This document shows positions 24,556-28,253 of a stretch of 34,499 nt of DNA, piece after piece (the first letter of the stretch is position 1; every line of letters starts with the position of its first letter). This DNA comes from Mangrovicoccus sp. HB161399. GTDB taxonomy: Bacteria; Pseudomonadota; Alphaproteobacteria; Rhodobacterales; Rhodobacteraceae. The notes under the pieces are model-generated. The model was given only the letters and a program-made list of their open reading frames with translations. It searched no databases and was not told the origin of the DNA. A program made the position numbers and the translations under genes. Location: NCBI RefSeq assembly GCF_013184745.1, contig NZ_JAATVU010000061.1, forward strand, positions 1 through 34,499. Reading direction: 5' to 3'.

Positions 24556-25277
24556 TCAGGCGGTGGCTTCCATCCCGAAACTCGTGCCATCGGCCCGCAT
24601 ACGGTGCAGCACGACAGCCATGCGTCGGGCCAGAGCCACCATTGCGCGCTTCCGCCCGCGACGTTCGGCAACATGGGCGGCCCACGTCCGAAGCGTGTTG
24701 CCTCGACCTCTATTCAGCATGACCGTTGCGGCCTCGCAGAGGACCCGTCGGGGATTCACGTCTCCAGCCTTCGTCATGCTGTCCCGAGACATCACGCTCG
24801 CCGGACTGGCTGCGCGAGGGTGTCAGGCCGCCCCAGGGACCGACATTCTTCGATGAGTGGAAGCGCGTGGGGTCGTCGACGGCTGAGCTATAGGTGAGTG
24901 CCACGACCGCACCCACTCCGGGCATGGCCATCAGACGCAGGCAGACAGGGTCTTCGGAGGCCATCCGCCAGACGCTCTTCTCCAGTCTGGCGAGCTCCAG
25001 GCGCAGAGCCACGCGCACGCGCAGCATGGGTTCCGCAGCGGCGTCGAGCACCGTGTTGCCTGCCACCAATTCCCGGATCCGCGCTTCGAACCTGCCGCGC
25101 GAGATGGCACCAACCTTCAGGCCGAAGTTCCGCAGGAGGCCTCACACCGGCATCTCCAGGGCAATCATGTTGTTCTGAATGGATTTCCGAGCTGCAAGGA
25201 TTGCACGTACCTCCTGGGCCGAGACCGCCTTGCAGTGGACCGGTCGGAACCAGCCGAGATGCAACAGGCGCGCGATC
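24556..25277 (-). pseudogene. IS110-family transposase remnant
   Basis: The minus strand contains, across three frames, the C-terminal two-thirds of an IS110 transposase. It begins at 'LHLGWFRPVHCKAVSAQEVRAIL', continues through an in-frame stop near 25143, then 'LKVGAISRGRFEARIRELVAG', 'MAMPGVGAVVALTYSSAVDDPTRF' and 'GLTPSRSQSGE' (helix-hairpin-helix/Transposase_20). After a frameshift near 24790 it finishes 'RRGRKRAMVALARRMAVVLHRM' to a stop at 24556-24558. The catalytic N-terminal DEDD part is gone. It is joined at about 25277 directly to an IS5-type fragment. Confidence 0.85.
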
Positions 25278-25469
25278 CCAGCAGTTGCAGAGCGTCTTGT
25301 GGGGTCCGTACTCGGAAGGAGCGTCCCGCCACCTCAACCCATTGCGATTGGAGAAGACGATGCCGCTCGGAATGCGGCGGCCACCGACCCGGGGATTGCC
25401 GTGCGGCTTCGGAGAGCAGGGCTCGAGACGCGCCATCTGTGCATCGCTCAACCAAAAAAGATCTGACAT
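25278..25469 (-). pseudogene. IS5-family transposase N-terminal fragment
   Basis: Starting at the ATG at 25469, the first about 64 residues ('MSDLFWLSDAQMARLEP', 'GRRIPSGIVFSNRNGLRWRDAPSEYGPHKTL') are the DUF4096-type N-terminus of IS5-family transposases of the rhodobacterial type. The similarity stops at Trp in 'CNCW', where the reading changes abruptly into IS110 sequence in another frame. The DDE catalytic part is absent. Confidence 0.85.
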
Positions 25470-26073: not shown

Positions 26074-28125
26074 TCAGGACGCGCGGCGCAGGGCCGAGGG
26101 CAGCGGCGCGTAGCTGCCGCCGCGGCCGAGCTGGGTGAGATAGACCGTGCTCGTCCCGGCATTCTCGCCGGGACCGAAGCGAAGCCGGAACCCGCCGATG
26201 TCGATCTCGGTGCGCTGGCCGAAAACGGTTGCGAGGAAGCCCTCCCGCGACGGCTCCGGCCCCGCGCGCTCCAGCATCTCGCAGAGCACGCGGCCGGTCA
26301 GATAGCCTTCGAGCACCGCGAAATCCAGCTTGGTGCCGCGCGCGGTCCGCTCCAGCGCAGCCGTGCATTGCTGGACCAGCAGGCTCGACCGGTCCGACGG
26401 GCTGGGCACGACCTGGCTGACCACCACGCCCTCACCGGAATCGCCCGCCTGGCGGGCGAATTCCGCGGCCCCGACGAAGGAGATCGTCGCCAGATGCGGG
26501 GAAATTCCCGCCCCGCGCAGACCCTTGACGAATTTTGCCGTCGGCCCGGCGGTTCCGGCCATGAAGACCAGCTTCGGGGCCGCCTCCGCGATCAGGCCGA
26601 CCGCCTCCGAGACGTCGCCGCTGACGCGGTCATAGGGGGCGAGATGCCGGATCGCGCAGCCGCGCGCGGCCAGCGGCTTCTTCAGAGCCTCGCTGACGGC
26701 CAGCCCGTAGGCATCGGCCTGGAAGAACAGCGCGCAGTCGTCCAGCCCGCCGAGAGACTCGAAATGGCGCACCAGCGCCTCGGCCTCGTCACCATAGGAG
26801 GCGCGGATGTTGACGACATGGCCGCGTTCGCGCGTGCGCAGGAAACCCGTGCCGGTGACCGGCCCGACGAAGGGCACGCGGCCGCCGCGGGCGATCCGTT
26901 CGCTGAGCTTGGAGGTGGGCGTGCCGACCGCGCCGACCAGGCCAAAGATATTGCCGCTGCGCACCAGCGTGCGGACGTTTTCCAGCGCCTTGTCGGGATC
27001 GTAGCCGTCATCGACCGCCTCCAGCACCGGGTTGCGGCCATGGATGCCGCCCGCCGCCGCCGCCTCGGCAAATGCGGCCTCGATTCCGATGCGGGTGCCC
27101 GTCCCGAGAGAGGCCACCGCCCCGGAGAAGGGCGCGGACTGGCCGAAGATCACCGACTCGGCACTGACGCCAGGTTCGGCCGAGATGTAGCGGGCGAATT
27201 CCTCGGTCTGGCGGCTGAGCCGTCCGGCCTCGTCCTGGATGGCGCGGATCCGCGCTTCCGCCTGCGAGAGCTGGCGGCCCGAAGCCTCGGCGCGCTCGGT
27301 GATCTCCTTGGTCGCCTCGACCTGGCGGTTGATCGCCTCGATCGTGTCGGAGGTCGTGGCCGAAACGCTTTCGTTCGCGGTCTTGATGGCGCGCACCGCC
27401 TCGGTCATGTTGTTGGCCGCGCCCTGCATGCCCTCGGCCGTCTCCTTGATCCGCTGCGCCGCCTCCGAGGTGCGGGTCGACAGCGTCTTGACCTCCTGCG
27501 CCACCACCGAGAAGCCGCGGCCGAAATCGCCCGCGCGCGCCGCCTCGATGCTGGCGTTCAGCGCCAGCAGGTTGGTCTGGAAGGAAATCGAATCGATCAG
27601 CCCGACCACCTCGACGATCTCGCGCGCGGCGGCCTGCACCTCGGCAGTGATCTCGATCGCGGCGTCGGCGCGGGTGGCGGCGTATTTCACGCTCTCGCTG
27701 GAGGAGGCGGCCTGCTCGATCACGGTCTGGATCGCGTTGCGGATGCCCTCGGTCTTCCGGACCATCTCGTTGACCGAGGCCACCGCGGATTCGGTCGCCT
27801 GCGTGCCCTCGTGGCCGCGGGCGATCAGGTCGGTCACGACCTTGCCGACCGTGCCGCTGAAATTGCGGGAGATCTCGCGCATCTGGTTGCGCCGCTTGAT
27901 TTCGAACTCGCCCTCGCCGACGGTCTGGACCTCGTTCTGGCGCGACAGCTTCACATGGGCGGCGCGCAGCTGCTCCACCAGAAGCGCCAGGGGATGGAGC
28001 AGCGAGCTTTCCGGCGGCAGCGGCAGCGGCTGCGCCGACTCCTCGATCAGCAGCTTCCTCAACCCGTCCGCCAGCCCGGCCATCTCGTCGGCCAGACGCT
28101 GCGGGCACTGTCCCTGATCCAACAT
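26074..28125 (-). CDS. Soluble chemoreceptor (MCP) fused to a periplasmic-binding-protein-like sensor domain
   Basis: 683 residues from the ATG at 28125, with GGAGGAG upstream. Residues about 90-310 are an MCP signalling domain with the conserved tip '[43 protein letters not shown]' (about 177-219) flanked by long coiled-coil helices. Residues about 322-670 are a type-1 periplasmic binding protein (Peripla_BP_6, LivJ-like): '[39 protein letters not shown]', 'DDGYDPDKA', '[11 protein letters not shown]'. There is no signal peptide, transmembrane helix or HAMP domain, so both modules should be cytosolic, and the sensor is C-terminal to the signalling part, the reverse of ordinary receptors. It would bind a small ligand, perhaps an amino-acid- or amide-like compound, and signal to CheA/CheW. 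No che genes are nearby. Confidence 0.88.
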
Positions 28126-28253
28126 TCCCTGCCTCTCCTCCGCGCAGGACGAGTCCCGCCTGCCTGCCGGTTCTGGCACCGATCCGTTAACGATCGATTT
28201 TCAGGATGAGGTTGCGGCGGCTTCCGGCGGTCCCGCAGCTCGGGACGGCCGGC

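Follow-up and report, generated by a model that had tools for sequence, protein, structure and literature searches.

A putative cytosolic chemoreceptor with a C-terminal binding-protein domain in Mangrovicoccus sp. HB161399

What could a periplasmic-binding-protein domain do at the C-terminus of a chemoreceptor that seems to stay inside the cell? The question is raised by a gene found in a 34,499-nucleotide stretch of Mangrovicoccus sp. HB161399 DNA (positions 1 to 34,499 of contig NZ_JAATVU010000061.1, here contig C282; the whole stretch is referred to as the window), whose product joins an N-terminal signalling domain of methyl-accepting chemotaxis proteins (MCPs) to a C-terminal type I binding-protein domain of a kind that is usually exported. 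Cytosolic chemoreceptors are common and, to our knowledge, few of their signals are known. We consider it moderately probable that this protein is a cytosolic chemoreceptor, in which the C-terminal binding protein senses an intracellular small molecule and signals to the kinase CheA. Such a receptor would probably let the cell steer by an internally sensed molecule, and its signal is directly testable by ligand screening, given that the sensor forms a self-contained and probably soluble binding protein whose relatives include solved structures.

Architecture of the fused receptor

The gene was correctly delimited in a preliminary description of the window; it lies on the minus strand and forms a single intact frame of 683 amino acids (aa) plus stop (Table 1). 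The surrounding open frame spans positions 26074-28179, and an upstream GTG start would give a protein of 701 aa. The ATG at 28125 is the likely start, because it is preceded by the purine-rich stretch GGAGGAGAGG and because the product of L014, the syntenic ortholog in Poseidonocella sp. HB161398, is also 683 aa long and aligns from residue 1. The gene order around the receptor is common to both genomes. Differences between the two genes number 62, 61 and 180 in codon positions 1, 2 and 3, respectively, a pattern typical of a translated and constrained gene. Protein identity amounts to 87% over residues 76-312 and 84% over residues 313-683, i.e. constraint is similar in both halves of the receptor.

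Besides L014, full-length colinear homologs are present in genomes G239 and G083, which gives a set of four fusions. These homologs, together with the third-position excess of differences, make it extremely unlikely that the gene is an artefact, either a pseudogene or a pair of genes that a sequencing or start error has merged. No support was found for a start or frame error, which the preliminary description had listed among possible refutations; the scars of insertion sequences (IS) that lie about 600 bases downstream are located in the gap after the gene.

The Pfam scan of the 683-aa protein placed only MCPsignal and Peripla_BP_6 above their cut-offs, both by a wide margin, whereas six other listed families fell below. 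The presence of the two domains in one protein, in the order originally proposed, is thus borne out. The MCPsignal core belongs to a helical hairpin with its tip glutamate at residue 194 and about 120 helical residues (about 17 heptads per side, a number obtained by arithmetic only, from which no MCP class was assigned) on either side of it; the hairpin is therefore full-sized and symmetric. The tip, which in known MCPs is the end that binds CheA and CheW, is canonical, its residues matching in the alignment those of the MCP I chains in the PDB. As both hairpin ends lie opposite the tip, the binding protein occupies the place of the membrane end of an ordinary receptor.

Neither a membrane segment nor a signal segment was recognized in the hydropathy profiles of the four fusions. 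In the window protein, the highest mean Kyte-Doolittle value of any 19-residue stretch is 1.34 (the other three reach at most 1.58), compared with 2.6 for a membrane MCP from this genome and 2.0 for the signal-peptide region of its exported paralog. Hydropathy thus agrees with the claim that the protein lacks a signal peptide and a membrane helix, and the search for evidence of export gave no export signal. The receptor is predicted to be cytosolic. The accompanying claim that it lacks a HAMP domain stands as far as profiles are concerned, since the N-terminus gave no Pfam match; however, the modelled helices 9-26 and 44-66 possibly represent a degenerate HAMP, and the HAMP profile came close to its cut-off in one of the four fusions scanned, the G083 relative (26.4 bits versus 27).

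The C-terminal half matches Peripla_BP_6 at residues 328-670 (E 3.3e-42, 145.8 bits versus a cut-off of 31.7, 338 of the 343 profile positions covered). The AlphaFold2 (AF2) model of the protein, built from ten aligned sequences, has a mean predicted local distance difference test (pLDDT) value of 70, and contains a complete two-lobed binding-protein fold with values of 81-95 in 30 of the 34 ten-residue blocks between residues 321 and 660. The best match of the model in the PDB is 4kv7 (template modelling score of 0.86 by target length), followed by 3lop and 4m88.

Comparison with 81 exported relatives revealed that many motifs at or adjacent to the cleft are kept in all four fusions, i.e. G401-T402-P403-T404, T424-G425, R441-A442, Y444, E447, Q469, D471, G474, S549-F550 and Q571-V572-V573-P574. 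Several observations weigh against a sensing role of the domain. Cleft residue 526, a tyrosine in 73 of the 81 relatives, is alanine or proline in every fusion, and the changes common to all four include A332->P, P410->R/K, F423->V/A/L, G477->V/I and G480->A. Moreover, the remaining four blocks of the modelled fold have pLDDT values of 66-75, among them residues 401-410 and 421-440 (66-72), which bear cleft motifs. The cleft loops were defined here from the general topology of type I binding proteins, in which such strand ends face the cleft, and comprise seven residues following each of ten ends. Of the positions conserved in exported relatives, all four fusions keep 27 of 40 within these loops and 35 of 71 outside them; the two proportions do not differ significantly (Fisher p 0.075, or 0.13 and 0.22 when stricter cut-offs are applied).

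The loss of tyrosine 526, the other shared changes and the unexceptional retention of the cleft loops would also be expected if the domain no longer bound a ligand and served as a structural or interaction module, which e.g. recruits a partner or, within a cytoplasmic sandwich array, holds receptors together at their inner ends. In R. sphaeroides and V. cholerae, cytoplasmic receptors form such arrays, which according to the excerpt of PMC3964821 are double layers in which the receptors meet at their presumed ligand-binding ends; in an array of this kind, the 350-residue domain would have to fit at the joined ends. We regard a purely structural role as unlikely, as most of the other cleft motifs are common to the window protein and its three relatives, which are 37-84% identical to it, and as the window protein and L014 are under similar constraint in both halves, while greater losses would be expected of a degenerate scaffold. 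The binding pocket is read here as altered but probably functional: of the conserved residues anticipated in the preliminary description most of the cleft motifs are retained, and tyrosine 526 is not.

Table 1. Coordinates of the fused receptor, its parts and its exported counterpart (window positions unless a locus is named)
Feature	Residues	Position	Strand	Basis or remark
Fused receptor gene	1-683	26074..28125	-	Frame, Pfam domains, ortholog L014 with 84% identity over 683 aa
Purine-rich stretch GGAGGAGAGG, likely ribosome-binding site		28132..28141	-	Read from sequence
N-terminal helix pair	9-66	27928..28101	-	AF2 helices 9-26 and 44-66; pLDDT 74-79 over 11-60
MCP helical hairpin	74-312	27190..27906	-	Tip Glu 194; AF2 helices, low pLDDT
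MCPsignal core	138-281	27283..27714	-	Pfam E 1.5e-28, 100.2 bits versus cut-off 34.6
Hairpin tip	180-205	27511..27588	-	Alignment to chains 8c5v and 6s1k of Methyl-accepting chemotaxis protein I
Short linker	313-323	27157..27189	-	AF2 helix end 314, first strand start 324
Type I periplasmic-binding-protein domain (Peripla_BP_6)	324-675	26101..27156	-	Pfam, fold match, conserved cleft motifs
Exported paralog/MCP pair (L055, G000)		L055 (contig C223), 7018-9792 and 9904-11106	-	Natural outside counterpart of the fused receptor

Distribution and origin of the fusion

The binding-protein half used as a query at 1e-25 matched sequences in 29 of 295 genomes of the family, 36 of 385 of the class and 57 of 398 of the phylum. 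The whole protein at 1e-80 matched 12 of 394 family genomes (a draw overlapping the former one), and fusions were recognized in three of them: the window genome, G239 (56% identity) and G083 (37%; the alignment with the window protein covers 604 residues at 38% identity). The fourth fusion is L014. Among the matches examined, the class and phylum searches revealed no fusion other than the window's own; the further matches of the binding-protein half are open frames too short for a fusion, with the possible exception of G723 (580 aa), the only one exceeding 550 aa. Neither the binding-protein half nor the whole protein found a match in G226, a genome of the same genus. The long frames L047, L080, L085, L090, L091, L118, L124, L188, L189, L190 and L194 were considered as further candidates and rejected, as their extra length is not MCP.

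Among the matches listed, the phage collection (5 of 50 records) gave matches to the MCP half only, and in the plasmid collection (40 of 72 records) none covers 80% of the protein. Among the titles and abstract beginnings listed from a literature collection of partial coverage, none describes a cytosolic MCP whose C-terminus carries a binding protein. The fusion architecture, pointed out from the beginning as distinctive, is real but rare.

In trees of the binding-protein domain the four fusions form one clade, with a support of 98 in a quick tree of 85 rows and 100/99 in a careful tree of 64 rows, from which 21 rows had been removed on grounds of branch length, composition or redundancy; the clade was present in 100% of the bootstrap trees of the latter. 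The MCP halves of the four fusions are reciprocal best matches among 50-51 matches each, and at 1e-28 the MCP half found only the window genome and G083 among 198 family genomes (G239 apparently lay outside this draw). As both halves group the same four fusions together, a single ancestral fusion within this bacterial family is likely, and independent fusions in different genera were rejected. In view of the long branch of L054, the single origin is stated as likely rather than proven.

Exported relatives and ancestry of the binding domain

The preliminary description had labelled the binding domain LivJ-like. With LivJ and other amino-acid binding proteins of the HAAT family it does share the type I fold and the Pfam family, and 4kv7 and 3lop are its nearest solved structures. 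It differs from them in lacking a signal peptide, and no permease or ATPase family of ATP-binding cassette (ABC) transporters was found among the 10 window frames scanned. The label itself did not hold: the close family of the domain consists of signal-peptide binding proteins which often lie beside receptors, and the NCBIfam LivJ-type model PRK15404 gave 32.9 bits with the window protein, versus a cut-off of 477.

Signal peptides were seen by eye in the frames of close exported relatives. A same-strand MCP gene lies downstream of 32 of the 81 non-fusion binding-protein frames examined, as called with an MCP profile derived from those of the window genome (nine of the 81 frames, with less than 1.6 kb of downstream sequence, left too little room for a call). 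Where there was room, the exported relative directly precedes an MCP in 19 of 23 loci (20 loci of the family and three plasmids of the order), and Pfam MCPsignal was confirmed in all five partners tested (L055, L148, L022, L074 and L061). The annotated plasmid loci of Thioclava, Ruegeria sp. TM1040 and Phaeobacter inhibens place the exported relative directly upstream of an MCP of 885-923 aa. None of these three pairs includes a transporter gene; in Thioclava and Ruegeria, sugar ABC genes are found a few kilobases off the pair. Many other loci, e.g. L017-L021 of Acidobacteriota, have no receptor downstream, and pairing is therefore common in this part of the family, not universal.

Other downstream genes were examined as well. 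Out of 11 chosen receptor-like genes that are not MCPs, nine are of histidine-kinase type (two of them truncated, one of which, L045, scored below the HisKA cut-off), one encodes a guanylate cyclase (L136) and one a SpoIIE phosphatase (L151). The Pfam TorS_sensor_domain matched five of the 11 at 21.1-26.6 bits, all below the cut-off of 27, and none of the five MCP partners tested.

The pairing of exported relatives with MCPs and other receptors, together with the absence of a transporter from the pairs, makes it probable that the fused domain descends from a signalling co-receptor rather than from a nutrient carrier. An origin from a LivJ transporter was rejected given the low PRK15404 score and this pairing. 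Substrate-binding proteins (SBPs) that activate chemoreceptors, kinases and other proteins are known (excerpt of PMC9602780). As in TorT-TorS and other SBP-activated systems, an exported binding protein often adjoins a receptor among the relatives of the window domain. In TorT-TorS, however, a separate periplasmic binding protein docks on a membrane receptor, whereas in the window protein the binding domain is covalently fused, predicted to be intracellular and has no partner gene.

The window genome itself has such a pair, an exported paralog directly upstream of a HAMP-containing membrane MCP on contig C223 (Table 1). In the careful tree this paralog falls into a well-supported clade different from that of the fused binding domain and free of fusions, therefore a derivation of the fused domain from the genome's own MCP-paired binding protein was rejected.

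Three observations concern the family more broadly. Its members (L144, L136, L151 and others) adjoin varied outputs, i.e. an MCP, a histidine kinase, a guanylate cyclase or a SpoIIE phosphatase, as in a modular co-receptor family. L194 of G307, whose genome of 1.9 Mb belongs to the same class, encodes on the plus strand, from position 1313 onwards, a member of the family fused behind a metallophosphoesterase-like domain, recognized by its motif by eye. Finally, the Rhodobacterales binding proteins L067 (7857-9458) and L068 (9719-11299), which form a clade with L042 in the careful tree, lack a downstream MCP and are immediately preceded by a gene for a phosphate-type substrate-binding protein (by eye).

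Proposed signalling and known systems

Three CheR-type, two flagellin-type and two CheW-domain places were found in the window genome, and a chemotaxis path therefore exists in it. Both CheW-domain places are located on contig C267; one, in a frame of 161 aa, appears to be CheW, and the other, in a frame of 843 aa, is judged by its length to be the genome's single apparent CheA. There is therefore one candidate kinase, if the receptor signals to a kinase. G239 has eight CheW-domain places and G083 has five.

An intracellular ligand and a feed into the chemotaxis array, both suggested in the preliminary description, are plausible. According to the reading we favour, i.e. a cytosolic receptor with an intracellular signal, the C-terminal domain would close on a small intracellular molecule and, through the short linker, pull on the MCP hairpin where its C-terminal helix ends. 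The change would run along the coiled coil to the tip and modify the activity of the CheA that would be bound at this end together with CheW. Ligand binding, the direction of signalling and the use of the C267 CheA are deduced here, and the fold neighbours alone suggest that the ligand might be amino-acid-like or a small carboxylate. The domain would stem from a family whose members are exported signalling co-receptors, and would have been joined to a membrane-free MCP in a single event, in an ancestor that belonged to this bacterial family; the fusion would have removed both its signal peptide and the need for a separate membrane partner.

Several facts speak against the CheA-dependent part of this scheme. 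The hairpin was modelled by AF2 at low confidence, and the tip of the G239 protein departs from the consensus (KTNMLAINA). There is no CheA, CheW or CheR gene in the window, no CheW-domain or CheR place on its contig, and no CheW-domain place within the G239 and G083 loci examined. Strict methylation motifs, defined by the consensus printed in PMC6829392, are absent from the window protein, L014 and G239, and one is present in G083; at least one occurs in 10 of the 11 other MCPs of the window genome examined (the partial match L013 was excluded from this set). The genome has a further short MCP that lacks a strict motif, L012, encoded by a 472-aa frame on contig C313.

The missing motifs, the absence of nearby che genes and the aberrant G239 tip would fit a protein that senses an intracellular ligand without steering through CheA, its MCP dimer regulating something else or competing with array receptors. 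We hold this to be quite unlikely, since the window protein has a canonical tip and since receptor genes located away from che operons are common, the 13 MCPsignal places of the window genome lying on 13 contigs. Furthermore, TlpT of Rhodobacter sphaeroides, a bacterium of the same order, provides a parallel. In the excerpt of PMC6829392, TlpT is a soluble MCP which, like the window protein, has no predicted canonical methylation sites, and is nevertheless methylated and needed for chemotaxis. Unlike the window gene, which lies on C282 away from the C267 CheW-domain places, TlpT, a receptor of the cytoplasmic cluster, is encoded with a second che operon, and no binding-protein domain is described for it in that excerpt.

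The closest described receptor is TlpD of Helicobacter pylori. As depicted in the excerpt of PMC13001251, TlpD resembles the window protein in having no membrane segment, a central MCP hairpin and a C-terminal sensor. The sensor of TlpD is, however, a small zinc-binding CZB domain, whereas that of the window protein is a two-lobed binding protein of 350 residues. The window protein would be a cytosolic chemoreceptor with a C-terminal sensor of another type.

LacI-type repressors and AmiC also use the type I binding-protein fold as an intracellular sensor, but couple it to DNA binding or antitermination instead of an MCP. The fusion illustrates how an external co-receptor could move inside the cell, and makes it possible to examine how such a relocation affects the pocket and adaptation, the exported paralog of the same genome serving as a natural control. 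A broader scenario, which we put forward only tentatively, is that a two-piece outside sensor became a one-piece inside sensor with an altered pocket and no canonical methylation, and that the cells might compare the outside (through the C223 pair) and the inside with related domains feeding one chemotaxis system.

The IS scars mentioned above are overlapping remnants of an IS110-type Transposase_20 and an IS5-type DUF4096, at 24713-25069 and 24891-25469 on the minus strand.
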